Notes under the pieces: model-generated | What the model saw: the letters and a program-made list of their open reading frames with translations, nothing else | Database searches by the model: none | What the model was told of the DNA's origin: nothing | Shown: positions 5,398 to 58,632 of the stretch, piece by piece | Numbering within the stretch: the stretch's first letter is position 1 | Layout: each line of letters opens with the position of its first letter | Position numbers and translations under genes: made by a program | DNA from: Druceiella hillmani | Lineage: Eukaryota; Arthropoda; Insecta; Lepidoptera; Hepialidae | Reading direction: 5' to 3' | Assembly: GCA_039881145.1 (NCBI GenBank) | Contig: JAYKKI010000090.1 | Span: 8,358,501-8,422,500, forward strand | Length of the DNA stretch: 64,000 nucleotides

Positions 5398-5637
5398 ATT
5401 ACTCGTTTAGTAACAATTAAATGAAACTACGTGATGTAGTATTATTTTAACTGTCTAAGTTCTTTACCACGACCTAGGTTTCGTTGTATTACAACATCTT
5501 CAGGTGGGCTATTAGCAGAGATCATCATTAGGTGGGCTATTGGAAAGTAGAAATAATACTACATCGCGTAGTTTCATTGAATTGTGAATAATGAATTTCT
5601 TAAAAATAAAAGCCAAATATTTTCATTACTCCTCTAG
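5398..5637 (+). mobile_element. Hammerhead fold-back element, copy A
   Basis: Element body at 5411-5624, flanked by 13-bp direct repeats at 5398-5410 and 5625-5637 (11 of 13 identical). The left arm begins caattaaatgaaactacg and contains a minus-strand hammerhead. The right arm keeps only the outer inverted repeat (actacatc-cgtagtttcatt), because its inner part with the second ribozyme is lost. The family-specific tail lies on the right, ending with a degenerate form of the motif gccaaatat. Strand is set by the tail being at the right. No coding capacity. Confidence 0.85.
5467..5507 (-). ncRNA. Hammerhead ribozyme motif, copy A left arm
   Basis: Read on the minus strand: stem I CCAC paired with terminal GTGG; core CTGAAGA; one extra T; stem II GTTGT/ACAAC with loop AAT; GAAA; stem III ACC/GGT closed by TA; then GTC, after which cleavage would occur. 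All invariant core positions are present. The unpaired T between the core and stem II is the main departure from the consensus. Confidence 0.72.
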
Positions 5638-6009
5638 GAACGTATCAACAATAACACTTTAACGGATATTTTTGTAAGAAATATGTATGGGAAATTTGCA
5701 CCTTGAATAAAAAAGCGATCAAGTACTTGTTTGACCCCATTGTGAAAGAATTTTATAAGAAAATATCAGGCAAGATGTGTAGGAAACTAACATTAATTAA
5801 ATTTTTTTAACTTTATTTATCCATTATTATATATGCTTAAATCACTATATAACTTGATTTATGTAACAGACTTCGTTATACTCAACAGACATAAGAGAAA
5901 TACGGAAATGATTTTTACTCATTAACTTCTATGGAAAATTCCTTACGATAATTTCTTTCTATAGACAGGAAAATAAAATAAACGATTGATATTCAAATCT
6001 TTTTAAACT

Positions 6010-6220
6010 ACGGTAATAAGATATTGAATATATTTGGCTTTAATTTTGTAGAAACTCATTATACTTAATTTTTCACAACTAAATTTTTACAAATTGCGCA
6101 CCTGAAGATGTTGTCATACAACAAAACCTAGGTCGTGATAGAGATTTTATATAAAGCAGAAATAATACCGCATCACGTAGTTTCATTTAGTTGTGAAAAA
6201 TTAAATAACGGTAATAAGAT
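6010..6220 (-). mobile_element. Hammerhead fold-back element, copy B
   Basis: Body at 6023-6207 between perfect 13-bp direct repeats acggtaataagat (6010-6022 and 6208-6220). The tail is on the left (attgaatatatttggc...), so the copy is inverted relative to copy A. The inner left arm is deleted and the right arm retains one ribozyme-like segment. It shares outer-arm variants with copy E (cattag/atac before a T-rich stretch), which suggests a subfamily. Confidence 0.85.
6098..6138 (+). ncRNA. Decayed hammerhead motif, copy B
   Basis: Same 41-nt architecture, but the GAAA after stem II reads AAAA, so the invariant G is lost, and one stem I pair is broken (GCAC with GTGA). Predicted inactive. 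Confidence 0.6.
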
Positions 6221-6349
6221 CCGTAAAAATGTAGTGTGAAAACCCAATAGCCAAAGTTTTGTAACTTAATAACCGCTAAAACTAGAAAATTAAAATTTAA
6301 TCAATTGCTTTATGTTGTATTGTGTGATCGATTGCTAATTCTTATAAAT

Positions 6350-6950
6350 AGGAAAATGAGCTAAAAAGTTGGAAAAAGTAAATGTATTTTATATGTGGCC
6401 CATGCGATCTGTTGATGACCGCTGACTATTTGGCTTTGTGCGATACTGTTAGTTATTTGTGATATTGAAATTAAGCCAGTTTACAGATTGGCAAAATAAT
6501 CGATCGATATGGAGGAGAAATTGAATTCTATAAAATTCCATTTTTAAGTTTATTTCGTTTCCAGTACCGTCAATAATTAATTTAGTTCAATTATTAGCAT
6601 GCTTAGGCTATTACTATTTAGTTCAATCAACATGATCACGTTTAGGTCATTACATACATTTAGGTTATTGTTATTTAATTAAATCAAATATGGACACACC
6701 CATTTCTATTCCAATAGCTTCACGATGTAATTATTTTATCGACCAGAATTCAGGCGTCAACCAGACAACTCACTTGCCTTCCAATGTTTAACGGAACATA
6801 TATTAGTGGGAGTAAAATGTTGATATATCACGGTTCTCTAAATATGAAAGAATAATTTTGGCAAAGCCAATTCAGTTCAGTGACGTTTAATATCTGATTG
6901 CCTCGAGCGCGAAGATAAAAGCTTAGATAAGTGTTTCACTTATGAAACAC
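6350..6950. repeat. Segmental repeat b, copy 1
   Basis: Collinear with 61795-62315. Shared blocks include ccgtcaataattaatttagt, the ctctaaatatgaaagaat block, aattcagttcagtga and gcgaagataaaagcttag. It has no coding content. The copy ends in a perfect hairpin that copy 2 lacks. Confidence 0.85.
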
Positions 6951-6960
6951 TTATCTAAGC
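6921..6960. repeat. Perfect 18-bp-arm hairpin, absent from paralogue
   Basis: Arms 6921-6938 and 6943-6960 are exact reverse complements around a 4-bp loop. In the paralogue (about 62293-62330) the left arm is conserved, but the following bases are unrelated to the right arm. Confidence 0.9.
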
Positions 6961-7772
6961 TGTGTCCCTTTATTTATTTATTCTGAATGAATATAAACAT
7001 GTACATATGCAACACTATATATTACCCCCCCTTTGTATATATTAAGGTCTTATTAATTATGGCATATTTCATTAGCTTAAAATTACAAATAATTTAAATA
7101 TGTTAGGAGATTATGATATTTTTGCGACTGTCATACTGAGTTAAGTTCGTTGAACAGAAAATTTTAAGTAATTAATGTAATTTATTAAATAGAAATAATT
7201 TATAAAAATAGTTATTATAGAACTTGACAGACAAATTAACTAGTACAAGAGCAAGACCAAACCATAGACGTCAATATGTCAACATCAATGTACAAAAAAA
7301 TAATTAATGTTCTTTGCAAAAAAGGACTTATTTTTATAATAGAAAAACGGTTTCAATAAAACTATGGGTAGTAAATTTTTTTATAAATTGAAATTTTTGT
7401 GTGTGCTAGCAAACGGAAATAATAGGACAAAGAAATTAAAAATTGGGTATAATCCTTTTAATACTTTTTATAATTTTTTATATAATTCCTACATTACCGT
7501 AAATTAATAATAACATTATATAAAAATGTTTTAAATTATTAACGACCACCTGGAATGTTACCAGGAATAATGTAATTTTATATCAATTTTTAGCGCACTG
7601 TACATCCTTTGTAGAATTTAATAGTAAACCTTATATAAATAGATTCATTCGAGTATTTACAAAACTTATCACATTTAACAAAAAAAAACAGTTTGTAATA
7701 AACGAAGATAGAAGAGAAAGGTGCCATCATCTTCTCAATCACGATGCCGCTGACAGGCCCGCTGAGAATCAT

Positions 7773-7926
7773 GGTCATCAAGTAGTACTGTCAGGATTTG
7801 TAACCCACCGATCAGGTTGTACTATCAGGAGCTAAGTAATTACCGAATAAGATCCTGGTTATCATAGGATATCAAAGGCAAAGTAACCCGTCCATCAAGT
7901 GGTATTGTCAGAGGCTAAATAGTGCC
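7773..7926 (+). repeat. Imperfect three-fold tandem repeat
   Basis: Three related units of about 35 bp start near 7773, 7807 and 7889. Each has the pattern atca-g-g/t-gta-t-tcag followed by gctaa-ta in the last two. It sits just left of repeat c. Confidence 0.65.
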
Positions 7927-8375
7927 TACCCTACATAGGTGCACTATCTGCTTTCCGTTAGTCCAACTCTTTCTGCTTCCTGTTAGTTTGATAAATTCCT
8001 GCAAAGAAATAGTCCATATCATATCGCTTCATCGCATGAGCAATCACACGCAGGTCCTGGTGCTCTCTTCTGCACCCTGCACGAAAAGGCGCTCTATGGA
8101 ACTCTAGCTCTCGTTCCGCAGTGGGATGTGGCCAAAAAAATTGAGTATCTAAAAATGCACTATGGTCGATCGACGCTGCTTGATGCTGAGCATTTAGGGT
8201 GTAGTATTTCAAATCTGGCGTAAATTTAATATGGAAGAGAGAAAAAGAGACGAAAATAGGCTAATCGCAGCGAAATTTCAATTAATTTTTATTCGAAATA
8301 AGTATTGAATCAAGTAAAAAGTTGACATATTCTGTGTAAATATAAAATAGGAAAGCTTTGAAAATAATAAGCTTT
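7927..8375. repeat. Segmental repeat c, copy 1 (empty site)
   Basis: Aligns with 63285-64000. Shared text includes gca-cct-cacga-a-ggcg, ctcgttccgcagtg, atggtcgat-gacgctg, gagac-aaa-aggctan-cgcag and aactttgaaaat-nataag. A third partial copy is at about 24985-25075. Reading the minus strand gives an 84-codon open frame, but the other copies do not keep it open, so I do not call it a gene. This copy lacks the 225-bp insert and the 103-bp duplication seen at 63.5-63.9 kb. Confidence 0.8.
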
Positions 8376-8379
8376 TATC

Positions 8380-10714
8380 GAATATTTTGAATAATCATAT
8401 TCGATCATATCATAAAAAATATAAGATTCGAAAAATTTTAGATTGGGTGGAAGAATTTTCTCAATACGACAATGTGTGACACCAAAATCATAATGAAATT
8501 TATAAGACGCCAAAACCATAAGTCAAAAGTATGAGGGAAACAGGTCAGTGTAAACGATTAGTAGGTAGAAAAATTATAGACAAAAAAAAACAGAAATACG
8601 TAAAGTTCTTTATTACAAAACGCCAAGTTCAATACCCACGCGATATTTTACTTCTAAATATTTTATCGGCAATTGACTCGAACCTCATCTCACGTTAACT
8701 TTCTACTTGTCTTGAATCTGCTGAAATGACTACCAATTTACTTATTCGAGGAAAAGAAACATCCGAAAAAGATATGGCGTTACCGAAATAGAACATAGTT
8801 TTGATGCGAAATATCATTCGGCCAGCTTCGAGTCTTGTAGGATTTTTCTAATTTTATTCGGCCAGCTTCGCGTGTTGTCGGCTGATGGAATTATAAAATT
8901 AAAAATACCTTTTCTGTATTTTGCTAAGAAATATTTATGTGGTAAAAATAAAAAAGTTACATTAATATTTTATTACGAACAATTATCTAAATATTTGTTT
9001 TTTCGTTTTCGATTTATTCAAATAAAAATATTTCAATATTTACACAAACATTAAAAAAATTTAGATGTTTCACATTTGCCAGTTGTACCATGATGGCACA
9101 CAATTTTTTTTAAAAGCTGGTATTTTTTAAAACACAAAAACCAAACAAGGTACGAATTGACAGTTAGAAAGGTGAAAAAAAAAAAATTAAGATCATAACA
9201 CAAACCAGAGAAGCCACCTTCAAGACGCGCATTTATTGTATTTTTAATGTATCAAATATTGTTAATGTTACATAAAAATAACAGTAAAAATCTAACGCAT
9301 TTCGGTAATATATTTTCAGAAATTGTTATAAAAAATAATCAATGTCGATCGTTTTTCTTTCTTTTGCGGTAGCCAAAGTTTTAATATTTGGATGGTAACT
9401 TTAAAGCAAGCAAGTGTTCGAACAAAATTTTATTTTAGTTTATACACCTTGCAGTATCTGGGTTGTATTATATGTGAATAGGCTTGTTATAAGGAATTTA
9501 AAAATATTTTTTTCAGATGTCCGAATAATATCATTACAAAAATGAACTGAAATTTATAAGAAAATGTTTGCACCTACTTCTGAAATTACTGAACCAAAAA
9601 TGACAAAGTATACAAGGTTGTTACAATTAAACTACATGGTTACAAACATATTATGGCGATTATCCTAGGTCTTTTAGTTCTTTTTTTCCTTTAGATAATA
9701 ACAATATTTTTATTCCATTAAAAATATACTATGTAATACATTAATAAATTGAAAAATAATATGTATATTTACAAATAATTTAACAGAAACTTTGTACGCT
9801 TAAATGTTTAAACTTTTATTTATATTTAAGTAACGCTGGTTGCGTGACAAGTAAATGTCGGTTCGAGCTATTCAGATTATTTTCGATAATTTTGATATGT
9901 TTTTATCAATTAAAACGAAACACATATTCCTGATTGCGGTAATAACTTAGTACGTTATTTAAATAGTTTCTTTAACTTTCGTTTCCTTCTTTATGTGGAA
10001 CCCACAATATTTTATAATTTGTTTAATGAATATTTCGCGTGAAAACATTATTCGGACTATAAATTAAAGTCGACATAAATATCCTGTTACAATATTGTAG
10101 TTAATGTTGAAGTCATGGTTAAGCATACAGAGATTATGACGGCTCAAATATAATTGTTAATAAAAAATAATTGGGAAAAGGCCTTCAGTAGAAAAAGATT
10201 GCTCTTCAGATCATGCGATGACACCGAACAATAGAACTCATTTTCAACTGCATTTTCTGCATATGTGTAGAAAATTAAATATTTTATTATATGCAATGAA
10301 ACGAGAATTCAACACAATATATCGATTTTATGGTGGAATTCGAATGCCAGAACAGTACTGTACCGGATATTTTTAGGTTTTACCTGTTGAAAGTATATAA
10401 TATTGCGAGTACATTTAAGTAAAGATGGGTTGACAAGTCGATATCACCTTTCCCGTAAATTGTATTTTAAAATTTATATAGCTAAATAGAAAAATATAAA
10501 ATTAATAATTCTCATAATGAAGCGTTTTATTTTAATTTCAAATTATATTGAATGATTTATACAGTTATATAAAATGTAACGAACAGAAAAATATTTTCCA
10601 TATATATATGTTGGACTAATTGCTCTAGATATTACACTCTTCAATCAATTGTTGTTTAATAGATTAAACCTGGTCTCTATGTCTAGAGTTAATCAATCAT
10701 AAGAAGAGAAGAAA
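8380..10714. other. A+T-rich stretch without genes
   Basis: No protein motif seen. It holds a short direct duplication: a block reading attcggccagcttcg at 8816-8837 recurs at 8856-8880. The rest is unique A+T-rich sequence. Confidence 0.5.
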
Positions 10715-11575
10715 AATATTTGTATATAACTTCATTCGGTAATAAAAGCAAACATAAATTAATTTTAAACTGAATACGGAATTACAATACAAATATTTAC
10801 ATAAATTGGAATGGGAAAACGACAAGAAAACAGAAGAAATAGGAGGTTACGAAACGTAAAACTTTGCAGACGGCTTTGAAGATATTTATGAAGGTTAATT
10901 TCCCGGTGTCAGGATTCACTTGATTGCAAAGTTGTATACTTACACAGTAACTGACTTTTCGTTAAGTTTAGAAGGTTATTTGGGAATTGGATGGGCGACT
11001 AAGTTTTATAACGTGGCCAAGGTCATAGGCATACAAGTCTCTTATTGATTCGATGGATTCGAGCTAAAGAAAAGTCTTCTTATGGATACAGATATATTAG
11101 GTTAAGTATCAAATAATAAAAAATATAAATGGGTGAACTATTCAAGAGTATTTCGTAAATAAATATATGTTTTGCCCTTTAATGACGTCATCGGTACATC
11201 TCAGATCGGTTTTCATGTGACACTAAATTCACCGGCGTTTGTTCAATAGTATCCACATTAGATCAGTGGTGTAACTGTAACGCATGTTATTAAGAGACAG
11301 AATATTAATGGGTGGTTTGTCTGCTGAGCAATTATTTCACAAATAAATTTATGAAATCCTTAGGAAATTTTTCCGTATTTGCAATATTGTTTAACATTTT
11401 TCATAATTCTCATGTTTTGTTAAGAGGTTCCCTAGTTTAGAGGTGTTATATTATTAATTAGTGGCCATTATACATATCTAGCTACAATACTACGTATGTA
11501 ATTCATAATTTAAAAAATTGTCGCTTTCAGTATTATTTATTAAAATTATGTGACATTACATTATTTGATCCAATG
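10715..11575. repeat. Segmental repeat d, copy 1
   Basis: Collinear with 53340-54195. Landmarks are tttgaagatat-tatgaaggtta, ggtgtcaggattca, tctcttattgattcg-tgg, attcgagctaaag, ggcgtttgttcaatagtatc, taattctcatgttt-gttaag and ttgtcgctttca-tattatt. In copy 1 the fragment lies 6 kb from repeat a, while in copy 2 it directly follows repeat a. Confidence 0.85.
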
Positions 11576-11670
11576 ACTTTGTAAGTTATATTCTCATAAA
11601 ATAAACAAAAAAGTGGCTCCGGGTAGCGTTCATCTATGGTCAGTAAAGAAAGATACATAGGGTAAAGAAA

Positions 11671-11697
11671 GCGCGCGCGCGCACACACACACACACG

Positions 11698-11742
<45 letters not shown>
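11671..11742. repeat. Compound (GC)n-(CA)n-(TA)n microsatellite
   Basis: Twelve bases of GC repeat pass into about 15 of CA repeat and then about 44 of TA repeat. A pure (TA)n tract also follows the paralogous segment at 54235. Confidence 0.95.
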
Positions 11743-11746
<4 letters not shown>

Positions 11747-11749
11747 ACA

Positions 11750-13329
11750 TATCTGTAGAATAATTGAATTGCAACCAAGGCAATTAACTTATGTTTTTAA
11801 AACCAGGTTTTGAAATTTGAGTTTTAATAACATTTATATAGAATTAATAAATATGTGTTTTAAACATATTGTCTATAAAATACTAATGTCATGTAATAGC
11901 CTTATTATATACATTGAAAGAAATCTAAGGGAATTGAGAAAAATGTTTTCATTACTTCACGCATAAAATGATACAGAAATAATGTGAAATAATGAATATC
12001 CGGACCTAGTCCTCTCGAATTTAAACCGATATATAAGTATGAAAGTATTGCTATTCCGTATCGCTGTCATACAAATATTTATAAGTTGTTTAAATTTATT
12101 TTTTGGTTCATCCATTTACTGATTTTATATTAAAATTATTTGACAACACACCGATGAAGTCGATAAAGATATCGCTAAGACAAAATAATCACATGGACTG
12201 AACAAAATAAAAAAAAAACTTTTAAAATATTCTTAATTTTGTTATCACCATGATTAATTATCAATCTAACGATATTAGAACGGCAGTGATGTAAAAGGAC
12301 ACCGTTGATAGTTATTGTGTTTTATCTCACTCCCGTACGAATTCGTATAAATTGATAACTTAAATTTTGTTTGAACAAAGAAATTAAATGATATTGGAAA
12401 AAGTCTGACGCAAATACTATTAATTAAAGTCGCACACTTATTCTGAAACTATGATACATAAAATATTCAATGCATGTGCAATCTTTAGATGTTTAAATAT
12501 ATTATTCATAGGTTTCTACGTTTTTCATTCGGTATCCCACAAATTTTCCTCATTTACTCTATACCCCTTGACACATCGCAAGGGATTTCGTATTGTTTAC
12601 TCTCTTTCTTATAACCGTATTAGATTTGGAAGTATCAAAAAGCCGAACAACGTCAAGTAGTTAACTAGTACAAGTGTAACATATACAGAACTAATAACCA
12701 ATACATACTAATTGATGATATAAGTGATACGCTTTTAAAAACCTGTCACCCTTTCTTAAAATGATATGGAAGAATAAATACGGCACATATGTCTTGATCG
12801 GGGTTACTTTTTGAAGTATCAGAAGTTAATTTTTTTTATTTCTTTGTATATTTTGAAAACATGTTTTGTGTGGAAAAAGTGATGAGAAAATCGAAATTTA
12901 AATCTATGTCTAGGACTGTTTTCCAAAAAAAAATTATTCGTATGTGCATACCTGTTATTTGTAAAATTCTGTACCGCAATAGGAAAAAAATTAAACTCTT
13001 GTAAACTCTGATAAAATCAATTACATGTTCATCTCTTTGTCCGTATGTTACAGTAATTTATCTAAGAAACTATTGATGAGCTGTTACCGGTAATCGGTAC
13101 AATTGAGGTATTATTTATAATTCCTAAGCAACGTATAGAATACCTGGGTAGTCCAGGCAATATATGATACATACTTTAATTAGGTAATGTATACTATTCC
13201 CAGGGATTGCATAGACTAATTGCAGGTCCAACGGCAACGTGTAAGGTAAATAAATTTGGATCTGTATTTATCAGATTTACATCTACCTGTAAAATGATGG
13301 ACAAATAAAACACCTTGTGTTATATATTA

Positions 13330-13363
<34 letters not shown>

Positions 13364-13744
13364 AGAGCAACTAAAGGAATCGAACTTTTCTTTCAACGTT
13401 TACATATCACGTAGTCTTTCAACTGAAAATCAAAGGGATTCCAAAACTACTGTTTTCATAATATAATGTAGGATAATCGTAGAGATAGTTCTGAAACGTA
13501 CACGAATAATATGCCGACATTTTAGATTTAAAGTACTTGTACTGTTCGATTCGTGAAATATTCAATCATTGCAGATCTAGAACCAGTCCATTTCCAATTG
13601 TGGTTGACAAGTTTCAAGACATTGATTAAAAAATAACATACATTCTTGACTCAACACGACAGTCGAGAATCAAGAATTGGTATACGTTCGAGTGATAGGA
13701 TAAATATATTCACTTCAACTCTTTATTCTTTACTTTTGGTATCC
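11750..13744. other. A+T-rich stretch without genes
   Basis: A (TA)n tract at 13332-13360 is the only clear structure. No coding or transposon motif recognised. Confidence 0.5.
13332..13360. repeat. (TA)n microsatellite
   Basis: About 14 uninterrupted TA units. Confidence 0.95.
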
Positions 13745-15180
13745 CATATTTCAACTTATTGATTCGGTACTACGACCCCATTCTTAAACACCAGGTACTC
13801 CATAAACCGCATTAACAACGAACGAATTCGTCTATGGAAAGATTACAAACCTGTACCGGAAAAGAAGGGTCTCCAAGGGTCGAACCTCACACACCACCAA
13901 TTGGAATTATACAGCCTCAGTATAATAAATATTCATTTAAATGACGCTTATTGGCTCCATAATGACCTACGCCCCTAATAATTTAGCACTGAATTTGAGT
14001 GCGTACGTGGGTAAATGTGTACACTACATGTTGACAGGAAGATGTATGAAGACACAGATTGCACTTATATAAAACAAACAGCATTTAACTTGAAATGGAA
14101 ATAATAAACGCACATTACACAGACGTCTCACGTAGTGGACCCGCGAGGGATCATGAGGCTGCACGATAGTACTGAACAACATTTGATGAGTTTAAGCATC
14201 GGGAGCTGGTTTTCTGTTTTTATGCAACTTTCAATTTCTTGTTCCTCCAACAATGGGAGTGATATATGATGACAAGCTATTTATTTTATAGACGAACGAT
14301 GTATTGGCCTTTGACATAAATAAAGCGTTCTCATGAGGTTACTTAAGAAATTAGCGTGTACAGTCACATATAAGAAACATGTTCTATTCAATCCATGTAC
14401 AGTCTACTACAAGAAACTAAATATTATTCGTTTAAATATATACATACATCTATAAAAAGTGTAACAAAAAAACTGTATATTGCAGCAAACAGATGATACT
14501 GTCCATCAATCTACGTATGTTCAAAGTGTGTTTCAGTAAAAAGAATTAATTTTTATGTTTACTGGAATCGTAATTTCTATTGTGATTTTTTCAAAAACGG
14601 TGGAGCATTGTTAGAAAGCTGTTTAATGTTTTTTACTCAATTAAGAACAAAATTATATATATGAATTACAAATACGCGTTTTTATACTTACATATTTGTA
14701 TACAGGGTTGAAAATATTCATATAGTTCCTAAATATTTTCTACTCAGTTTGATGCATAGAATTCCCTGTATGAATAACAAATTTGTAACACATGATTGTT
14801 TAACATCCAACTGTAGTTTTGTTCAAAAAAATCTATATGAATGAAAAAAAAAATTCGTAAATGAAACCGAAAAGAACTTAAAAATATTAATTAGAGAGAA
14901 GAAATAAGACAAATTATTAAGGCCCTAGAACTTTCTTTACAAAAGTATAACGGTTCAGCTTTATATCACAAAGGAAAATTCAATAATTTCAAAATCTAAC
15001 TTTGATAGTCAAATTTTTCAAAAGCAGGCTATTGAAATATTTGAGGCCAAACATTGAGAAACCTCGACTTGATTCTAGTTATAACTTAGCAATTATTTTA
15101 ACAAACGTAAAGCCTCGTTGAAATATTTCAACATAAATATTCGGTTAGCTCTATAAGCGATAGAATATTTAGTTAGGTCT
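13745..15180. repeat. Segmental repeat e, copy 1
   Basis: Collinear with 56105-57600; its first about 150 bp also resemble 59030-59180. Landmarks are caccaggtactc-ataaaccgc, aagggtcgaacctcacacac, atgacgcttattggctcc, gtgtacactacatgttg, gatgagtttaagcatcggg, cagtcacatataagaaacat and gtttgatgcatagaattccc. On the minus strand the first block contains ggttcgaccc, which resembles a tRNA-type B box. No coding frame is conserved between the copies. Confidence 0.85.
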
Positions 15181-33061: not shown

Positions 33062-33272
33062 CAATATTACAAATTCACAATTAAATGAAACTACGTGATG
33101 TAGCAAAGAATCTTTGCTAATATCCCACCTGAAGATGTTGTAGTACAGCGAAACCTAGGTCGTGGTAAAGAAATTAAAGAAAGTAGAAATAATACTACAT
33201 CACGTTGTTTCATTTAATTGTGAATAATGCATTTCTACAAAATTAACGCCAAATATATTCAATATTACAAAT
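33062..33272 (+). mobile_element. Hammerhead fold-back element, copy C
   Basis: Body at 33075-33259 between perfect 13-bp direct repeats caatattacaaat (33062-33074, 33260-33272). The left arm is reduced to its outer inverted repeat (tcacaattaaatgaaac), while the right arm is complete with one ribozyme and the right-hand tail ending gccaaatatatt. An internal deletion joins the outer left arm directly to the caaagaatctttgctaatat centre. Confidence 0.9.
33125..33165 (+). ncRNA. Hammerhead ribozyme motif, copy C
   Basis: Stem I CCAC/GTGG, core CTGAAGA, extra T, stem II GTTGT/ACAGC with one G-U wobble and loop AGT, GAAA, stem III ACC/GGT, GTC. Differences from the other copies fall in the loop or preserve pairing. 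Confidence 0.72.
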
Positions 33273-33494
33273 ATTTACAAACAACATATAATAGTGAAAA
33301 CCGTATCTAAATTAATTAGAATGAAACTGGTCTTCTGTGAGAATTGTGACATTATTGTTTTTATTGAAGATTCTAAAAATATTAATAAACAACACATCAT
33401 AGTGAAATCAGTATTTAAGAAAAAAAATAAATTGTTTTTATATCAAGTAATTATGTACTGAAAAAGATTATATCTATTTTGAAAGACTTAATTA

Positions 33495-44273: not shown

Positions 44274-44808
44274 TACAAAACTGCAACTTGTATTATATTG
44301 CTGGGTATTTTGTTTACAAGTGTTGGAAAAGGTGAAAGTTAAACAGTGGGGGATAGTCTATGGAGATAAAAATCTAAGGAGCCTGTCTTATACTTTCATA
44401 TTACGTGTGTAGAAAAATTTGTCATAATTTTTGTAAGCGGAGACACGTCATATCTACTTGCATTTCAACGTCACTCGGACCGAGACAAAATATTTCCTCT
44501 TTGTGAAATATATTTATGTTTCTTGGAAAATACATCAAAAAGTGCAAAAATTAGAGCGGAAAGACCTGTGCCTTAAAAACAATGTCACTTATTATAAATA
44601 AATCCACTTTTATTTAATTTTGAACAATATATATTATTCGTAAATAATTCACTCTCAATTTAATGAATTATTGAAAGGCCATTTCAAACTAATGAAATAT
44701 TAAACGGCGTGTACCAAACGAATAATTTTTAAATTAAAAAGCAGGATAAGTCAAAATTAAATGAACCTACGTGATGTAGTGTTATTTCTACTTTCTTTAA
44801 TTTCTTCA

Positions 44809-44849
44809 CCACGACTTAAGTTTCGTTGTATTACAACATCTTCAGGTGG
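44809..44849 (-). ncRNA. Hammerhead ribozyme motif, copy D left arm
   Basis: Intact core. Stem III has changed from ACC/GGT to ACT/AGT: two substitutions on opposite strands of the stem that keep the pair. Because the site is a palindromic hexamer this is suggestive of covariation, not proof. Confidence 0.72.
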
Positions 44850-44892
44850 GATATTAGCGAAGATCTTCTTAGCTAGAATCTTTGCTAATATC

Positions 44893-44933
44893 CCACCTGA
44901 AGTTGTTGTAATACAACGAAACCTAGGTCGTGG
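44893..44933 (+). ncRNA. Hammerhead motif with mutated core, copy D right arm
   Basis: Same architecture, but the core reads CTGAAGT instead of CTGAAGA. The last core A is an invariant hammerhead residue, so this arm is predicted inactive. Confidence 0.65.
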
Positions 44934-45044
44934 TAAATAAATTAAAGAAAGTAGAAATAATACTACATCACGTAGTTTCATTTAATTGTGAATAATGAAT
45001 TTCTACAAAATTAACGCCAAATATATTCTATAAAGCAGGATAAG

Positions 45045-47318: not shown

Positions 47319-47321
<3 letters not shown>

Positions 47322-47369
<48 letters not shown>
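47322..47369. repeat. (TA)n microsatellite
   Basis: About 24 TA units. Confidence 0.95.
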
Positions 47370-47371
<2 letters not shown>

Positions 47372-48811: not shown

Positions 48812-48812
48812 C

Positions 48813-48850
<38 letters not shown>

Positions 48851-48853
48851 GTA

Positions 48854-48925
<72 letters not shown>
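48812..48925. repeat. Interrupted (TA)n microsatellite
   Basis: Two long TA runs around a gtatgtatatgtg interruption. Confidence 0.95.
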
Positions 48926-49933: not shown

Positions 49934-50050
49934 TTGAATATATTTAGCGTTAATTTTGTAGGAATTCATTAGAATTTAATTTTTTCTAACTAATTAAAAC
50001 TACGTGATGCATAATACTACATCACGTAGTTTCATTTAGTTGGGGAAAAT
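49934..50050 (-). mobile_element. Hammerhead-family fold-back element, copy E (minimal)
   Basis: Left tail (ttgaatatatttagcgtta) and outer arms only: actacgtgatg-cataa meets its inverse directly, so both ribozymes and the centre are deleted. Flanking A-rich sequences (49921-49933 and 50051-50063) match at about 9 of 13 positions, too weak to assert a target duplication. The outer-arm variants ally it with copy B. Confidence 0.75.
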
Positions 50051-50119
50051 TAAAAAAATAGTCTTGAAATATTTAACAAAATTCAATATAACTGGTAGGT
50101 TAATCTACCATATAACACT

Positions 50120-50900
50120 TTCATTTCTAATAAACTAAACATACACCCGAGCTTCTCTTTGAAATCGCTTTGGCATGTATCAAGTTTATATGTTGAAAAT
50201 ATTTCGCGACAATAATGACAATAGTCTTAAATAAAATTTAACGAGACCCAGTTATATATTATTTCATCGTATCTGCAGTTGACAACGCAAAAAATTTTTA
50301 TGATTATTTCATTTGAATTACCCACCAAAATACTTTAGAAGAATTGCTGAAAATAAGAAAAATGGGTGTGCTTATGACCACGCAGTAGAAGTGAAAATTT
50401 TGGTAACAAATATAAATGCACTTTCCACCTGGAAAATTTTGAATTTGAATTAAAAAAGAAGTAAAATACGTTCAAAATTAATTTATAAAAGTTACGCATC
50501 TGCATAAAAAATACATCAAGTAATAAATACATTTGTCTAAAGAGAACGTCTTCCATATAAATGTGAACTTTATGTACAAATTAAAATTCTAGTCGGTATT
50601 GAACTGAGTTGTTTTCCGTAATCCATTAATATAATAACAAAAAGTATGCACTACGCTGTATAAAATACAATATCAAAGTTTGCAATTGCGACATGATTGT
50701 TTACAAATAAAATTATTTAAGTATTTTAATGATAAATTTATATTTTCGAAATATTAAACACATATTACCTTATATCGTTTGTTTTAGTTTAAAATTGTCG
50801 ATGTAGTGTACGTTCTCAACATTTCATTAATTTCAAATTGCGGTGAATTATTTACAAATAATATACACCTTTGCAAAAAAACGAGCACCTAAAATTTTTC
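50120..50900. repeat. Direct repeat f, copy 1
   Basis: Left part (aacatacacccgag, ggcat-tatcaa, acaataatgacaatagtct) matches 59190-59290. Right part (atttgtctaaagagaa, aattaaaattct, atttcattaattt-aaattg) matches about 60870-61200. Copy 2 is split by about 1.5 kb of extra sequence. Confidence 0.7.
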
Positions 50901-51489
50901 TTTATAGCTATGGAAATATTAAAAAAGAGGTTTTATATGCATTCGAATATATCGGAAATATTTTTCTGCAAATTGAAGGGTACTTGAATACACGATAAAA
51001 TTGGAGTTAAAAGATTTGTTATATGGTTAGGTGTTCTGTTTTTTTTTTTTTAAATAAATAACAAATTAAAATTACTCAAACAGTTATTTTTAAATACTGT
51101 TATAGTTTTTAGTGACAAATTTTATAACATATTATAGCAAATTTAAAAATAATCGCTTGTAATGTTGTGACTCTTCTTGAAGAAGATTGTACTCAATATT
51201 ATGTTACGTAATCGTTTAGTGTAACCCATCCTATTGTTAAGAGGACCTAGCAAAGATTTAAAGACAGAAATTCATGGAAAAGAAAGTCAGAATAGGGAAG
51301 AAAACCATGCACTCAGCCAAGGCACGATGCACTGAGCCAAGTTTTATAAAATCTAAAGTTTACTTACACAAACATAAAAAATAATCTCGACAAAGTGAAA
51401 GATGTAAGTGGAAGCCTATCAGAAAAAAATTCTATAAGTTGATGTCTACAGCAGAAAACTGGGTAGGGTCCCAAATTACTCCCCAGGCA
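50901..51489. other. A+T-rich stretch without genes
   Basis: Nothing recognised before the transposase relic; its N-terminal part may begin somewhat left of 51490. Confidence 0.4.
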
Positions 51490-52055
51490 CCGCTTTGCAA
51501 AGTCAACATTTGCCCAAAATTGTGCGACATGGACCGATGCAGAATGAAGTAGGGTTTTATTCACTTATGAAGCCAAAATCTCTTTGTTTGTTGAGGAACA
51601 AAGTCGCAAAGTGCTGGGAGAACCTAGAAAAGTTAAGCAAACATATGCTTAAAAGAAATTACACCTTACGGAGGAGGCTCCGGTATGTTTCGGGAATAAG
51701 TTATGAGGATCGTACGAAGTTCATTTTTGTTTTAAAAAAGTCTCTGACTACATAAAGATACATTGGAAAAATTCTAATTCCTCGTGCACAGTCAACACTA
51801 GCCGTTATAAGAGGTACTGATGTCCTCATGAACCATAATTCTCGAACGCTTTGAGAGGGCAATGTAGACGCTTATATGAATGAAGTGATATGCCATTTAG
51901 ATTGACCAGCATAAAGTCCCGACCTCGATCCTATTAAGCATTTATAAAGCATTCTAAAATGGCGTATTAAAGCGGTATATCCAGCTCCACGGAACATCCG
52001 AAAACTAAAAAGAATTGTTTCGTCCGAATAGAGGTGTGTTCTCCAAGAAGTCAAA
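51490..52055 (+). pseudogene. Tc1-like transposase relic
   Basis: The plus strand, read across several stops and at least two frameshifts, gives fragments in Tc1 order: a SRVLF-YEAKISLF segment where the first catalytic Asp should lie (51559 region), GISYEDRTKFIFV (about 51695-51735), YIGKILIPRAQS, then TDVLMNHNSRT for the second-Asp site, and finally SPDLDPIKHL followed by ILKWRIKAVYPAP (about 51915-51990). The expected catalytic residues are changed (first D to Y; second D to H or N; final E to K). Long dead. It is related to, but not the same copy as, the element at 54.5 kb and lies in the opposite orientation. Confidence 0.78.
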
Positions 52056-52059
52056 AAAA

Positions 52060-53310
52060 ATTCAAGAAAATCGTTTCACAAGTGTCTCAGAAAACTGAAT
52101 TTATTTAACTTCATGATGTATCCAGGATAAAATAAAATCAAATGTGAAAGGTTTGTAAAGATATTTCCAAAAATATTACAATAGAACAATTTTAGCCACA
52201 TAGTTAAATTAGTTTAAGCACTACACCATAGAACACACGCACAAACACACACGCATGTGATTCTACACCTAGGAAACACGTGCGTGGTTATACATATACA
52301 AGCGCACTCACTCTTACACAAACCCATAAACAAATACACATTAGGCCGCACAAACATGTATATGCGCAAACGCACATATATACGCATACTAGCACCCACT
52401 CACATACACTCACACACACGCACACACGCACACACGTGTACGCACTTACTTGCATAAGTGCACATACACACACTTTCGCACTCATATACTCACGCACATA
52501 TAATCACACATTAGGACACGCCTTCGGGTATACACACGCACGTACCCACACTCACAAATATGCAAACACATATTGCAATTCGTCTTTTACGTCTCACGTA
52601 AGTAAAAATGCAATTTTTTAAAAGCAGTAAAAAATAATTAAATTACTTACAAATTATTGTTTAAAGATGTACTTTGATACTCGCGTCCCAAACACATAAA
52701 TAGAAAAATCTTTAAATTATTTTTCAGGATAACCCCAATATATTACCCAAAAAATTTATGTGAACTGCTTAGTTGCTAATGACTTATTTTTTTTCAAATA
52801 AGTGTTTTTATTTAAAAAAAGCAAACAGGTCGGCTACCTTGTTACACGGGGCGTGACCGCTTGGACATGAGTAACTTTTTTGTCAAAAAGGCTTTAATTT
52901 CTCTGGGGAAATGCATGTTTTATACGTACATAAATTGACAAAACTGGCCAAATGCGTGTCCCACACTTAATCGAATTTGAAGTTATCTTAAATGATAATA
53001 TGTTGTATTGTCATACTTGTTCTAACCCGTGGTTGAAAAATTAAGTTGTTTTAAAAACCATTCATATTACTATTTCTAGAAGTCAATATAGCTATACAGT
53101 TTTAGAGTTAATTTTATATTTATGTAATAATATAAACGAAATTAATCGTCTATGGTTCAAATTATAATTGCATTAGAGAACGCAAGGCAAAAGCATTCTT
53201 TCTATATAATACAAATAATGATAATAAATTCTGATACGAAAATAAATTAGGAAAACATAACGATGAAGTGGCAAGTGAAAAATCAAGCGAAATATTTTGA
53301 TTATGTTCAA
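52060..53310. repeat. Segmental repeat a, copy 2
   Basis: Paralogue of 3106-4495 including a CA-rich tract at about 52230-52580, where His/Thr-rich and Val/Cys-rich frames are artefacts. It begins almost exactly where the Tc1 relic ends. Shorter than copy 1 by a deletion around 52920. Confidence 0.85.
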
Positions 53311-53339
53311 AATGTATCTCTATGTTACAAACATTGCAT

Positions 53340-54195
53340 AATGTTTCGATATAGTTCCATTGGGTAATTAAATAAACATAACTAAACTTTAAATGAAGAA
53401 TCAGAATTACAATAAAAATATATACATCAATAAGAACTAAAAAACAACTAGAAAACACAAGAGGCAGAAAGTTAAGGAACTTAAAACTTTTCAGACAACC
53501 TTTGAAGATATTAATGAAGGTTAATTTCCTGGTGTCAGGATTCATCATCATTGCAAAATTTTGTGCTTTATAGAAAATTACTTTCCAAAAAGGCAGAAGC
53601 GTATTTGGAAATTAGACCTGCGAATAAGTTTGAATAACGTAAACAAGGTCATAGACGTACAAATCTCTTATTGATTCGGTGGATTCGAGCTAAAGAGAAG
53701 AACTTTACGAACACAAATCTGTTAGGTTAAATGTCAAATATTGGCAAATTCAATAGCATTTCGTTAATAAATATTTTTTGTCCTTAAATAATGCCACCGG
53801 ATCTAGATCGCTTTTCAAGTGACACCAAAATAATCGGCGTTTGTTCAATAGTATCAACGTAACACCAACAGTGTCACTGTACGACATATTGTTAATAGAT
53901 GTATGTTCAATGAGTGGTTTGTTTGTTTTGTTTGAATTCTTGGAAAATATTTCCGCACTCGCAATATTCAATTGCAAGTGCGGAAATATTAATATGCGGA
54001 ATACACTTGCAATATACAATTTCGTAATTCTCATGTTTGGTTAAGAACTTCTCTAGTTTACAGGTGCAGTATTATAAATTAGTGGCTACCATACGTTTTT
54101 ATCCCTAATACCAAATACGTCCGTTCCTAATTAAAGAAAAAATTGTCGCTTTCAATATTATTCATTGAAATTATGTGACATTATATTATAATTTA
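53340..54195. repeat. Segmental repeat d, copy 2
   Basis: Paralogue of 10715-11575. A 129-codon minus frame at 53162-53551 spans the a/d junction, is not open in copy 1 and is therefore not called. Contains the hairpin at 53946-53990. Confidence 0.85.
53946..53990. repeat. 20-bp-arm hairpin, one mismatch, absent from paralogue
   Basis: Arms 53946-53965 and 53971-53990 around a 5-bp loop. A partial direct copy (acacttgcaatat) follows at about 54004-54016. The paralogue at about 11360-11395 has only the left-arm sequence, in diverged form. Confidence 0.85.
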
Positions 54196-54232
54196 TCCCA
54201 GGATGTTGCATTAAATTAACAAGTTTTAAATG

Positions 54233-54234
<2 letters not shown>

Positions 54235-54301
<67 letters not shown>
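54235..54301. repeat. (TA)n microsatellite
   Basis: About 33 uninterrupted TA units. Confidence 0.95.
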
Positions 54302-54302
<1 letters not shown>

Positions 54303-54483
54303 CTTATTTGCACATCTACAATTACACCATGATTCTCATGTGTGCTCCCACTCTGTAGCTCATGTTTTTGTTTTTAATATTTTTGAAGCTCACGAAATAA
54401 ATAATTTAAGCTTAGCATATGAATGAACTCTCGAGGACTATATGAATATTTATATGTATGTATTACACACCCCAACCACGAAA

Positions 54484-55209
54484 TTAAAATGAAAAAAGAG
54501 CTGGTTTTATGGCTCTGACGCATCTTTTGAGATTATCCCATGTATGTTCCATCGGATTCAGGTCAGGACTTCTAGCTGGCCAGTCTAACCGATGAATCCC
54601 GGACTTCTGCATATACGCATGAACGTCTCTAGAGCGGTGGGCGCGAGCGTTGTCGTCCATAAAAATAGACTCGACTCCAACTGCTGTTAATGCGGGTTGT
54701 GCATGAGGAATTAGAACTTCTGTTATGTAACTTTGCGCATTAAGTGTGCCATTTTCAGTAAAAACTAACTCGGTACGGTCATCTGAGTTAATAACAGCCC
54801 AAAATATTACGGAGTCTCCACCGTAAGGGGTGATTTCCTCAAAGCACACTTCTGCGAAGCGTTCTCCAGGTCTTCGCCGACATCGATCCTCATCACTAAT
54901 CGATATACGAGCTTCATCGGAGAATAAAACACTATTCCAGTCTTGTTATTGAGTCCGTGACGAAACATTTTCAGCGAATCTCAATCTGGCAACTCGATGC
55001 TCACGGAACAATGTAGGGTCCCGAGCTGGGCGATAGCTACGCATATTGACGGGCTGGAGTCTCCTTCTAACTGTCCATAGGCTTACTCGTGTAGCTCTGA
55101 CGTCCTCGAGGTTATGTTTGAGATCCACGTACGTAACTTGACGATTTCGTAGCTCTTGACTGACTATGAAGCGGTTCAGTGCACCATTTTCTACCAGAAC
55201 CGGAGTTTT
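54484..55209 (-). pseudogene. Tc1-like (DD34E) transposase, one in-frame stop
   Basis: A single minus-strand frame runs from 55209 to the stop at 54484-54486, interrupted only by a TAA at 54946-54948. It would otherwise give about 240 codons against roughly 340 for a complete Tc1 transposase. Order: the second helix-turn-helix part (VSLWTVRRRL), NSVLFSDEA with the first Asp (54916-54918), FMDDNARAH with the second Asp (54652-54654), and DWPARSPDLNPMEHTW with the Glu (54547-54549). Exactly 34 residues separate the second Asp and the Glu. The catalytic triad is intact. The first DNA-binding helix bundle and the last 40-50 residues are absent, and no terminal inverted repeats were found. The transposase would act on the ends of its own element by cut-and-paste at TA. 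Its good preservation suggests a younger insertion than the 51.5-kb relic. Confidence 0.9.
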
Positions 55210-55501
55210 TCAACCATGCTGAGAACAGCAAACAGAAGTGAACTAATACAGCAAACAACAGAAATTTAATTAAAATTTATTCGTTAAAATAATAAAACGT
55301 AACAAATGGAAAAGAACTTAATAAGAGTTGGATTTCATTTACCGCCAAAAAATACATTTTGTCAGTGAAAACGTTCCTTTTATGTGCCAGAATACACTAT
55401 ACCTGCCAGTAACAATTATAATTAATACAATATCTTAATAAATAATATTTTGTTAATAATATTTAACAAAATCAAAACCGGCCGTTTATATACAAAAGAG
55501 T
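55210..55501. other. A+T-rich stretch, probable remainder of the Tc1 element
   Basis: No terminal inverted repeat could be matched to the left side of the transposase. Nothing else seen. Confidence 0.35.
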
Positions 55502-55502
55502 G

Positions 55503-55590
<88 letters not shown>

Positions 55591-55602
55591 TATCTAAATA
55601 TG

Positions 55603-55656
<54 letters not shown>
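55502..55656. repeat. Compound (TA)n-(TG)n-(TA)n microsatellite
   Basis: TA run, about 26 bp of TG repeat, then two further TA runs. Confidence 0.95.
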
Positions 55657-56104
55657 CAGTTCGTAAAAGATTTGTATTGTAAACAAGTCAAATATTTTGT
55701 GTTTTTAGAATTACACTCCGAGTAACTTAAAAGCATTTTGTTCTCTTCGTTAATAAATATAATAAATAAAAAAGGGATTAATTTAGATCCATGTGATACA
55801 TTAGAAGTCACCTGGACATATGGTGATAAGAACCCAAACTTTAATTGCTTGCTATGAAAAAAAAATTCCAAGCAGGTTGTCCCTGGTCCCGTTAAATACC
55901 AGTTTTTGCATCAGCATTAATTGATCGACCTTGTCAAATGCTTTCTTGAAATTCATGTATATCACATCAGCCTGCTATCTGAAACACAATGACTCGAACA
56001 ATTGTCGATCAAACAGTTTTTAAAATGTTTCTTAAAGGTATCGAAACTTTGCTCAATCAAGAAATACGAAACGGGAAAATATATATATACCAAATTTATA
56101 TATA
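55657..56104. other. A+T-rich stretch without a called gene
   Basis: At 55780-55960 the minus strand translates to short phrases (MEFFFHSKQLKFGFLSPYVQ, and further right YMNFKKAFDKVDQLM in another frame). The phrase FKKAFDKVDQLM resembles the AFD-V motif region of non-LTR reverse transcriptases (nFxKAFDxVxH). The surrounding frame is broken. This may be a small reverse-transcriptase relic of about 180 bp. Confidence 0.4.
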
Positions 56105-57600
56105 CGACCCCCCTGTTCAATACCAGGTACTCGATAAACCGCATTACCAACGAACGAATTTATTTATGGAAAGAAAACAAATCTGTTAGTACCTATACCG
56201 GAAAAAGGGGCACCAAGGGTCGAACCTCACACACCACCAATTGCAATTATACAGTATTGGTGTAATAAATATTCATTTAAATGACGCTTATTGGCTCCGT
56301 TATGACCTTCACCCGTAATAATTTAGTACTGAACTTGTGTGCGTACGTGCGTAAATGTGTACACTACATGTTGGCAAGAGAGTTTATGAAGACACAGATT
56401 GCACTTAATTAATAAATGTATATTACACCGACAACTCACGTAATAGACCCGTAAGATACCGCGACGGTTGCACGATAGTGTTGAACAATATTTGATGAGT
56501 TTAAGCATCGGGAGCCGGTTTTCTGTTTTTATTCAACTTTCGATCTCTCTGATTCTTCTAAAAATAGGAGTGATATATGATGATAAGTTCGTTATATTAT
56601 AGACGAACGATGTTTTGATTTTTGACATAAAGGAACCCTTTTCATAAGGTTAGTAAATAAGCGTGTACAGTCACATATAAGAAACATGCTCTGTAGAATC
56701 CGTGTAGTCTACTACATCAAGCAAAATGTTATTGCTATATATAGACACATTTGTATAAAGTGCTAACAATCTGTCTATTGGGCATACAGGTGATTATGTC
56801 TGTCAAGCTGGGTATATCCAAAGCATGTTTCAGAAAAAGAATTAATTTTTATATTCACTAGAATCGTAATTTCTATAGTGATGTTTTCAGAAACTTTCAT
56901 TCCAAAATTTTCAGATATTTTCAGAAAGCTGTTAAACGTTTCTAGTCAGTTTGATGGACATAATCGTCTTTATGAACAACAGATAAAGTTTTTTTACACT
57001 TACATATTTGTATACAGAATGAAGCAGCCAACGTATGTAACATTCATGCAGGTTTAGTACGCATGAAACATAACTTTCACAGCATTTTTTATTGAAACGG
57101 TTGAATATATTAAATATAATTCTTTTATATTTTTCACTCAGTTTGATGCATAGAATTCCCTGTATGAAAAACAAATTCGTTCTTTGTTACCCCTGAATAT
57201 CTAACATGCAACTGTAGTTTTGTTCAAAAAAAGCTAAATGAATGAAAAAAAATATTCATAAATAAGAACGAAAAGATTTAAAAAAATTTAAGAACACTAA
57301 GAGAAAGGAAATAAGACAGGTTATTAAGGACCTAGAAACTTCAATACTAATATATAATGGTTTAGCCTTATATTACAAAGGAAGTTTCCATAATTTCACA
57401 GTCTAACTTGAAAAGCTAAATTTTCCGAAAGCATGCTATTGAAATATTTGAGGCCATAGGTCAAGAAATCTCGACTTGATTCGAATCATAACTTAGAAAA
57501 TATTTTATTAACAATAAAGCGTTGTTTAAATATTCAAAAATAGGTATTTAGTCAGCTTTATAATGGATAGTCGATCTATTAGACATTATTACCTTATATA
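56105..57600. repeat. Segmental repeat e, copy 2
   Basis: Paralogue of 13745-15180, collinear over almost 1.5 kb with small indels. Overlapping short frames in its left part are not conserved in copy 1. Confidence 0.85.
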
Positions 57601-58330
57601 TAACTACTTAAGTAACTATATTCAAATTCCTGCAAAAGTTTTGAACGTGAGTGGATTAGTCAAATAGTGAAAATTCTAAATATGTACGACATAATTATGA
57701 GTTATTTTAGTAAGAAGATCACGTATTTAACTACTAATAACAAATATGAAATGGAAATTCATATTTAAATCATTTCGTGTTAAAAAACCTCCATGTTTCT
57801 CCAGCTATTTTCTACTTATAACTCTAAACATTTCTGATCTTGCATGCACTAGAAAATTATAAACGGAGTGGCATTAATAATTATTCTTGCAATAAAATAC
57901 TTAAGGAACTGAGTGGAGTATATTACCATCGCAGCATACGTTGTCATATGAAGCAAACTATATCTAGGTAAAACCAAAATCAATACAATAATAAACTTCT
58001 CTGAATTGACTGTCTGATGCTTTTCATAGCTAAAATTTCACTGCTGCTGCTATAGTCTAGACTCAATATTTAATTTTCAAAAGATTGAATAATGCCTTTA
58101 TTTAAAGGAAAAACGTCTTCTTTTCCAAGAACATGAGTATAATGTCTGCACATGAGCAATATACGAAACTACTATTTATAGTAACAAGTAATGAAACTTG
58201 ATATAGTACATTTCGCTATCCATTGGTAAGTTATGGAAATAAATGTTTACTCCAGCATGGCCCTCCAAGTTATTGCATAAACCCAGATTTTATAAATAAC
58301 AATGTGCAATAAAAATCGTCTTGCAATAAA
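57601..58330. other. A+T-rich stretch without genes
   Basis: Nothing recognised. Confidence 0.45.
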
Positions 58331-58446
58331 GTTAAACTGTAATCAAATATTAAATATATTTGGCGTTTATTTTATAGAAATTCATTATTTACAATTAAAT
58401 GAAACTACGTGATGTAGTATTATTTCTTCTTTCTTTAAGTTCTTTA

Positions 58447-58487
58447 CCACGACCTAGGTTTCATTGTATTACAACATCTTCAGGTGG
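58447..58487 (-). ncRNA. Hammerhead ribozyme motif, copy F left arm
   Basis: Intact core CTGAAGA and GAAA. Stem II reads GTTGT/ACAAT, so one G-C pair is now G-U and the stem is preserved. Confidence 0.72.
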
Positions 58488-58521
58488 GTTATTAGTTCTT
58501 TGAAGTATCTTTGATAATAAC

Positions 58522-58562
58522 CTACCTGAAGATGTTGTAATACAACGAAACCTAGGTCGTGG
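58522..58562 (+). ncRNA. Hammerhead ribozyme motif, copy F right arm
   Basis: Intact core. Stem I is CTAC/GTGG, with one C-G pair replaced by U-G. Stems II and III match the family consensus. Confidence 0.72.
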
Positions 58563-58632
58563 TAAAGAACTTAAAGAAAGTAGAAATAATACTACATTAC
58601 GTAGTTTCATTTATTTGATGTTAAGCTGTTAT

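Follow-up and report, generated by a model that had tools for sequence, protein, structure and literature searches.

Penelope-like elements (PLEs) are retroelements whose canonical layout is a reverse transcriptase (RT) followed by a GIY-YIG endonuclease in a single reading frame (PMC11167929). The purified lizard element cleaves and extends both target strands, with reverse transcription starting internally; its tail spans two start sites, and its hammerhead mutants insert normally (PMC11167929). In the part of PMC7761336 that was accessible, PLEs are named as likely helpers of retrozymes. The integration route of PLEs, together with their frequent one-tailed inverted pseudo-long terminal repeats (pLTRs), is a standing question in the field.

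Here we describe a 64-kb stretch of the Druceiella hillmani genome (C90:8358501-8422500, hereafter the window; the genome comprises 2,586,002,920 bases, or 2.59 Gb, in 181 contigs) in which six related elements, A to F, have common inverted arms. With the mechanism read from sequence, we consider it quite likely that the six derive from a PLE abundant in this genome, as insertions of its leader only.

The elements and their source

By domain order and element anatomy, we assign the source of the arms to the PLEs, and its RT motifs presumably resemble those of PLE RTs. Its copies number in the thousands across this genome. The most informative locus, L069, holds two tandem units offset by 3,096 bp and identical over 3,253 aligned bases; this identity suggests copying from a multimeric or circular RNA, with a possible role for the hammerhead. 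Each 3,096-bp unit carries an 810-aa frame with Pfam matches to RVT_1 (residues 336-532, 9.9e-15) and GIY-YIG (PF01541, residues 703-739, E 4.8e-4, 20.8 bits). The frame begins MNFYKINAKYIQY, which is the translated tail of the short elements, so that the tail consists of the start codon and about 12 codons of the PLE frame. The arm is the PLE 5' leader, spanning units 1-111 with the ATG at 112, and a hammerhead-like motif lies at units 10-50 with predicted cleavage after 46. The pLTRs occur both ways, in tandem in L069 and head-to-head in L070 and L071.

When flanks were compared with the arms masked, a few arms ran on into common sequence. At locus L011, an RT (RVT_1, 1.1e-11) and a GIY-YIG domain (2.7e-4) are encoded between two arms and read toward the arm and tail known from the short elements; this insertion is flanked by a 12-bp target duplication. 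The L011 endonuclease piece also matched a group I intron endonuclease model (1.9e-5) and, weakly, PDB 1mk0 (0.017). A protein search with the RT piece returned four relatives without names, and the RT query gave 150 scored matches among 2005 first-look candidates, several of them in 810-aa open frames.

Ends were fetched for 21 coding head-to-head pairs, and both arms were found in 20. Among these 20, the tail is one-sided in 19 and a flanking run of at least 9 nt is present in 14 (exactly 12 in seven); two of the shorter runs were clipped by the search frame. The remaining pair, L100/L101, has two tails, and its flanks are reverse-complementary beyond the element, as in a larger palindrome or an assembly artefact. 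Because leader-only and coding copies are alike in head-to-head order, one-sided tails and a 12-13-bp target-site duplication (TSD), they were most simply made in the same way.

A preliminary description of the window had proposed looking for a GIY-YIG RT element with the same arms. Such an element exists, and arms, hammerhead, tail and TSD are common to both; that description's alternative, a separate ribozyme-bearing fold-back class, is not supported. The six copies with common inverted arms lie where it had placed them. Its term fold-back applies to the inverted arms but not to their symmetry, because the tail is present in one arm only; likewise, hammerheads in both arms were claimed for the family, whereas D and F alone have segments in both.

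Read with the tail as the 3' end, an element consists of a target duplication, an inverted tail-less arm, a short centre, a direct arm, the tail and a second target duplication. Copies A, C and D point rightward and B, E and F leftward. Their features are as follows, with unit numbers referring to the PLE.

5398..5410, no strand: left target duplication of copy A, ATTACTCGTTTAG, 11/13 against the right copy
5414..5516, minus strand: tail-less arm of copy A, an inverted leader, unit 105-1
5467..5507, minus strand: hammerhead-like motif of copy A, core intact
5543..5628, plus strand: tail-bearing arm of copy A, inner truncation at unit 64, tail end at unit 149
5625..5637, no strand: right target duplication of copy A
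6010..6022, no strand: target duplication of copy B, ACGGTAATAAGAT, 13/13
6021..6070, minus strand: tail-bearing arm of copy B, unit 101-150 only
6098..6138, plus strand: hammerhead-like motif of copy B, broken (G12 to A)
6099..6204, plus strand: tail-less arm of copy B, unit 11-116
6208..6220, no strand: other target duplication of copy B
33062..33074, no strand: target duplication of copy C, CAATATTACAAAT, 13/13
33073..33103, minus strand: tail-less arm of copy C, truncated, unit 110-80
33116..33263, plus strand: tail-bearing arm of copy C, full leader and open reading frame start
33125..33165, plus strand: hammerhead-like motif of copy C, core intact; no Rfam hammerhead match at E up to 10
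33260..33272, no strand: other target duplication of copy C
44738..44750, no strand: target duplication of copy D, AAAGCAGGATAAG, 13/13
44755..44858, minus strand: tail-less arm of copy D, full
44809..44849, minus strand: left hammerhead-like motif of copy D, core intact, U-A in place of one stem III C-G pair
44884..45031, plus strand: tail-bearing arm of copy D, full
44893..44933, plus strand: right hammerhead-like motif of copy D, broken (A9 to U)
45032..45044, no strand: other target duplication of copy D
49934..50010, minus strand: tail-bearing arm of copy E, strongly truncated, without hammerhead
50011..50053, plus strand: tail-less arm of copy E, unit 74-116
58331..58343, no strand: target duplication of copy F, GTTAAACTGTAAT, 11/13
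58344..58495, minus strand: tail-bearing arm of copy F, full, with a tail that exceeds those of C and D by a few nt
58447..58487, minus strand: hammerhead-like motif in the tail-bearing arm of copy F, core intact
58515..58617, plus strand: tail-less arm of copy F, full
58522..58562, plus strand: hammerhead-like motif in the tail-less arm of copy F, core intact; weak Hammerhead_HH9 match, 15.3 bits (gathering 52)
58620..58632, no strand: other target duplication of copy F

A short imperfect direct duplication (33256-33310 and 33362-33418) adjoins copy C. A tree of seven window arms gave no resolution.

The family extends far beyond the window. A genome-wide collection of copies, suggested earlier as a check, found 93,187 occurrences of the leader's hammerhead 39-mer at up to three mismatches (46,681 on one strand and 46,506 on the other), against none for the reversed control pattern; exact pattern scans of viral and prokaryote contigs likewise gave no match. 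For closer study we took stretches around exact hammerhead-word matches listed at the start of contig C1. After the overlapping L006 and L008 were dropped and the window was added, the sample comprised 67 loci, 318,274 bases and 159 arm or tail matches. L060 and L061 are one duplicated locus, and L061 was left out of the half-site, junction and truncation counts.

Ends, arms and target sites

The inner ends of the arms are sharp. Among 122 arms that reach the start of the model, 42 end exactly at ATCTTT and 27 one base further (one of these, L017, being a diverged long form), while 53 comprise long forms, decayed arms and arms that end differently. Eight arms are joined to pLTR sequence (two each in L011 and L018, and one each in L046, L047, L026 and L017). 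Upstream in the long form lies a TATA-like box, which reads CATATAAATG in L046, L047 and L069 and takes the variants CATACAAATG in L011 and CATTTAAATG in L018. Where the box is TATAAA (L046, L047 and L069), its first T stands 31 nt from the A of ATCTTT, and 31 nt is the classical spacing from a TATA box to an RNA polymerase II start. The TATA-like box and the sharp end would place the transcription start at the A of ATCTTTGC, and on the simplest reading the inner end represents run-off of the complementary DNA (cDNA) at the capped end of the PLE messenger RNA (mRNA). We considered hammerhead cleavage as the origin of the leader 5' end and rejected it: the predicted cleavage site is some 50 nt downstream of the common inner end, and only 2 of the 30 truncated arms terminate near it, within units 45-49.

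Genome-wide, words spanning the inner end number 8,363 against 93,187 leader words, an approximate comparison because the pattern lengths differ, and thus roughly nine in ten leaders lack the upstream continuation. This excess of leaders over words running into the pLTR would suit a genuine non-autonomous fold-back family that propagates itself with PLE proteins, but we think such a family rather unlikely. The short copies have no TATA-like box. Their central loops, of which 35 were compared, mostly differ from copy to copy, apart from the duplicated locus L060/L061 and four plain palindromic joints. Moreover, the commonest short-copy haplotypes, T/A (70 of 111) and G/C (18 of 111), are also the commonest among long copies (3 and 2 of only 6). 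Because junctions differ and the box is missing, the copies look like fresh insertions of the PLE-mRNA leader and less like a self-propagating family; a self-propagating ribozyme class was rejected on the same two grounds, mostly copy-specific junctions and the lack of a promoter in short copies. The earlier suggestion of a non-autonomous Penelope derivative is correct in substance, with the copies probably made afresh from PLE mRNA as leader-only insertions instead of by a family propagating itself.

The arrangement of arms is strikingly uniform. Where arms were adjacent within 150 nt, we counted 62 head-to-head pairs, no tail-to-tail pairs and six same-strand neighbours, so that all 62 oppositely oriented pairs are head-to-head; the tail lies on one side in 55 of the 62, on both sides in two and on neither in five, in line with the one-sided 30-40-bp tail of PLEs. 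A metazoan retrozyme, which would consist of direct tandem monomers with hammerheads, does not fit 62 head-to-head pairs against six same-strand neighbours. The tail-less arm mostly starts at unit 105-109, which is 3-7 nt before the start codon. The start of the tail-bearing arm lies some 40 nt beyond that, near unit 144-151. Derived bases are common to both arms of an element much more often than expected (55, against a shuffled mean of 11 and a maximum of 24 in 1000 shuffles), and both arms therefore come from the same or closely similar RNA.

Shared derived bases are also what self-priming would produce, in which a single cDNA folds on itself and is copied back to yield the inverted arm. 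This was proposed for rotifer Penelopes by Arkhipova et al. 2013, in the portion of PMC3846280 available. We find it quite improbable here. It agrees with the 31 of 61 elements whose arms are equal inside to within 8 nt, and with the palindromic joints: of the 35 loops, 15 have both ends clear, and of these four have no filler and 11 have 4-44 nt of filler. However, a copied arm cannot exceed its template on the inside while lacking the template's tail, and 55 of 62 pairs have a one-sided tail. Taking differences above 8 nt, the inner end falls short in the tail-bearing arm in 16 of the 61 elements and in the tail-less arm in eight; six are not one-sided. In the window, the tail-bearing arm is shorter inside in A and B and the tail-less arm in C. 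Among coding copies, L070 joins unit 992 on the tail-bearing arm to 912, and L018 joins 2793 or 2715 (tail-bearing arm; an internal repeat makes this ambiguous) to 2291; conversely, L071 joins 848 (tail-bearing arm) to 897, and L011 joins 1202 (tail-bearing arm) to 2111. These four joints have 0-3 nt of overlap, and the arms of L070 and L071 are more than 99% alike. Where the tail-less arm is longer inside than the tail-bearing arm, neither arm can have been copied from the other, which argues against self-priming and for two independent cDNAs, one per target strand. Later deletions aside, the sequences exclude snap-back for these elements.

The target sites point in the same direction. The preliminary description reported 13-bp repeats at five copies. 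They are exact in C and D and perfect over 13 bp in B; those of A and F match at 11 of 13 positions, and copy E has a low-complexity near-repeat only. Random flank pairs score as well at frequencies of 0.0004 for B, 0.001 for C and D, 0.006 for E (poly-A), 0.04 for A and 0.13 for F, and the repeats of A and F are therefore weak taken alone. Across the sample there are 74 tail-bearing matches, with both ends located in 59, and the flanks of L060 and L061 are identical. The longest exact flanking run is 12 nt in 13 of the 59, 13 in 12, 11 in four, 14 in three and 15-16 in three. Runs of 12 or 13 thus account for 25 of 59, and runs of at least 11 for 35 of 59, a length that only 0.3% of mismatched flanks reach. 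The remaining 24 runs are shorter, as would follow from decay, misplaced ends or genuine absence. Allowing for chance extension, these sequences put the natural TSD length at 12-13 bp. Genome-wide, the duplication does not have a strictly fixed length of 13 bp, and 19 of 59 elements lack a run of 9.

Half-sites were compared in 34 elements with runs of 11-16, using 8 nt per flank and controls about 30 nt away. The pattern T T A A n lies next to the cut, outside the duplication, on both flanks and read inward on each strand. Of the 34 flanks on each side, 9 and 12 contain TTAA; the corresponding numbers for the controls are 0 and 1 (in total 21 of 68 against 1 of 68). Symmetrical TTAA half-sites fit a nuclease acting as a dimer, and the single staggered nuclease that had been proposed survives in this modified form, with a 12-13-bp stagger genome-wide in place of a constant 13. 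Small size, lack of coding sequence, inverted arms and a target duplication would also describe a miniature inverted-repeat DNA transposon, a reading that we regard as scarcely credible: the inner end lies at a promoter position, the duplication is 12-13 bp, and identical ends occur on the RT and GIY-YIG element. With the tail one-sided in 55 of 62, the termini are asymmetrical, and this class was rejected along with fold-back DNA transposons.

Taken together, these observations make it probable, in our view, that PLE integration is a two-ended form of target-primed reverse transcription. In this scheme, a GIY-YIG nuclease acting as a dimer would make a staggered cut at a palindromic TTAA-n(12-13)-TTAA site, leaving 12-13-nt 3' overhangs, and each 3' end would prime its own cDNA on PLE RNA from one of two internal starts, one 3-7 nt before the start codon and the other about 36-38 nt into the reading frame. 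When synthesis begins at the leader near the RNA 5' end, both cDNAs would soon run off at the cap site, and their inner ends would be joined directly, by microhomology or with filler, giving a head-to-head inverted pLTR. A start at the leader copy in the 3' pLTR would instead produce long coding copies with the same anatomy. Most products here would be dead leader-only copies that record the transcription start.

Several points weigh against this account. The transcription start is read from the TATA-like box and the sharp end in sequence only, and the box is imperfect in two of the five long copies. The GIY-YIG score of 20.8 bits falls just under the Pfam cut-off of 22.6. TSD lengths scatter: 35 of 59 elements have runs of 11-16, and 19 do not reach 9; six of the 20 coding pairs lack a run of 9 or more, and the flanking run of L018 is only 9 nt. 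Five of 62 pairs are tail-less and two have tails on both sides. Later deletions could have shortened one arm in old copies, though the arms of L070 and L071 are over 99% alike, and the 31 equal-arm elements are compatible with self-priming by length. Finally, the sample leans toward young copies, since loci were chosen by exact hammerhead-word matches from the beginning of a single contig.

The hammerhead-like motif and other window features

Full arms carry a 41-nt motif, CCAC-CUGAAGA-u-GUUGU/ACAAC-GAA-ACCUAGGU-C-GUGG, with a full core, a palindromic stem III too short for good self-closure and an extra U after A9. We scanned the window with a descriptor comprising the core CUGANGA, GAAA and UH and three stems, allowing one extra base after A9. 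It returned exactly five hammerheads, all inside the A-F elements, and the same window scan without the extra base returned none. The count of seven segments, five with an intact core, made earlier from the sequence alone was matched: given the extra base, five of seven window segments have the conserved core with three stems, while the core is broken in copy B by G12 to A and in D's right arm by A9 to U. In the left motif of D (44809-44849, minus strand), the stem III palindrome changes from ACCTAGGT to ACTTAAGT, with both sides changed and pairing kept, a single case in which chance is possible.

We judge it unlikely that the segment resembles a hammerhead by chance and is no more than a hairpin in the PLE leader. 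The descriptor matched 4 of 60 random Markov windows, a mean of 0.067 per window, and minimal hammerheads have been published in PLE pLTRs (PMC7761336, from the portion accessible). Covariance models, a check proposed at the outset, gave only weak hammerhead matches. The intact PLE leader matched Rfam Hammerhead_1 weakly (16.6 bits) and copy F matched Hammerhead_HH9 with the core aligned (15.3 bits), but no hammerhead match reached its gathering score (34 and 52 bits, respectively, for these best two), and copy C had none. Over the whole window, the Rfam matches were to microRNA and small nucleolar RNA models and all fell below the gathering score; those on D and F reflect their long hairpins. 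The extra U after A9 also speaks for a mere hairpin, as does folding energy: for the 41-mer of copies A and C, the minimum is a plain hairpin at -7.2 kcal/mol, against -3.8 for the hammerhead fold. In D and F, both arms pair into a single long duplex. With the plain hairpin favoured and this duplex available, ribozyme activity is not to be assumed.

To compare substitution rates, we used 43 partner arms and 22 bystanders, copies whose own motif had played no part in their selection. The core changes less than the outer arm, at 7 of 473 against 79 of 2399 positions in the first comparison (p 0.04) and 8 of 242 against 98 of 1256 in the second (p 0.013). This lower rate is only suggestive, but it counts against a chance resemblance. 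Selection on the whole ribozyme in single copies was rejected, because the hammerhead as a whole varies as fast as the outer arm (p 0.72 and 0.56) and only the core is lower.

Elsewhere in the window, a degenerate Tc1-type transposase lies at 54487-55209 (minus strand), with DDE_3 (1.4e-13) and HTH_Tnp_Tc3_2 (1.1e-12) in neighbouring frames; it was the only Pfam match in 10 of the 74 longer window frames, those that were searched. Repeats of 0.2-0.8 kb at 75-82% identity pair 3122-4481 with 52056-53298, 13771-15163 with 56103-57570, and 10715-11564 with 53340-54189. A 103-bp direct repeat (99% identity) occupies 63489-63591 and 63817-63919.

Implications and comparison with known systems

Tens of thousands of leader-sized insertions amount to a natural experiment on PLE integration, in which inner ends mark the likely RNA 5' end, outer ends mark two RT start sites, and unequal arms distinguish self-priming from two-ended priming. 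Two testable predictions follow directly: that the nuclease site is palindromic, and that a single retroelement protein carries out dual priming. The numbers also suggest that a single PLE family can yield many hammerhead-like motifs as by-products (about 93,000 at up to three mismatches). In literature surveyed mostly by title and the start of the abstract, we found no description of mass leader-only PLE insertions, of two-ended priming as the cause of inverted pLTRs, of unequal arms as evidence for such priming, or of a symmetrical TTAA site with a 12-13-bp duplication in PLEs. PLEs themselves, their hammerheads, their tails and their inverted pLTRs are already known.

Metazoan non-LTR retrozymes, in the accessible part of PMC7229834, are likewise small non-coding hammerhead elements; they consist of tandemly repeated units of about 300 bp whose hammerheads are of the classical type I, whereas here we find single head-to-head leaders with minimal hammerheads. 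The hammerheads of Lunse et al. 2017, as reported in the portions available of PMC7761336 and PMC6155905, resemble the present motif in their core, very short helix III and pLTR location, but the present one is a predicted motif and has an extra U between A9 and stem II. In the part of PMC3846280 available, the Penelope of the rotifer Adineta vaga has head-to-head inverted pLTRs, solo pLTRs, RT and GIY-YIG, and a one-sided tail, there of 31 bp or about 10 codons of the frame. Its TSDs are 8, 9 or 10 bp or absent, against 12-13 bp here, and its inversion is ascribed to self-priming on antisense RNA, whereas here truncation is independent and leader-only copies dominate.

The Poseidon PAc element of Anolis resembles the present family, with an internal RT start, a tail between two start sites, an AT-rich target and a hammerhead at the leader and frame start (PMC11167929). 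Leader-only fold-back insertions are not described for it in the portion of that source available. Its RT start lies 111-118 nt into the frame, whereas here the starts range from a few nt before the frame to about 38 nt into it (PMC11167929 for the former). In Poseidon PAc both strands are cleaved and extended in vitro (PMC11167929), the same two-strand reaction to which the arms and target sites of this family point from sequence.

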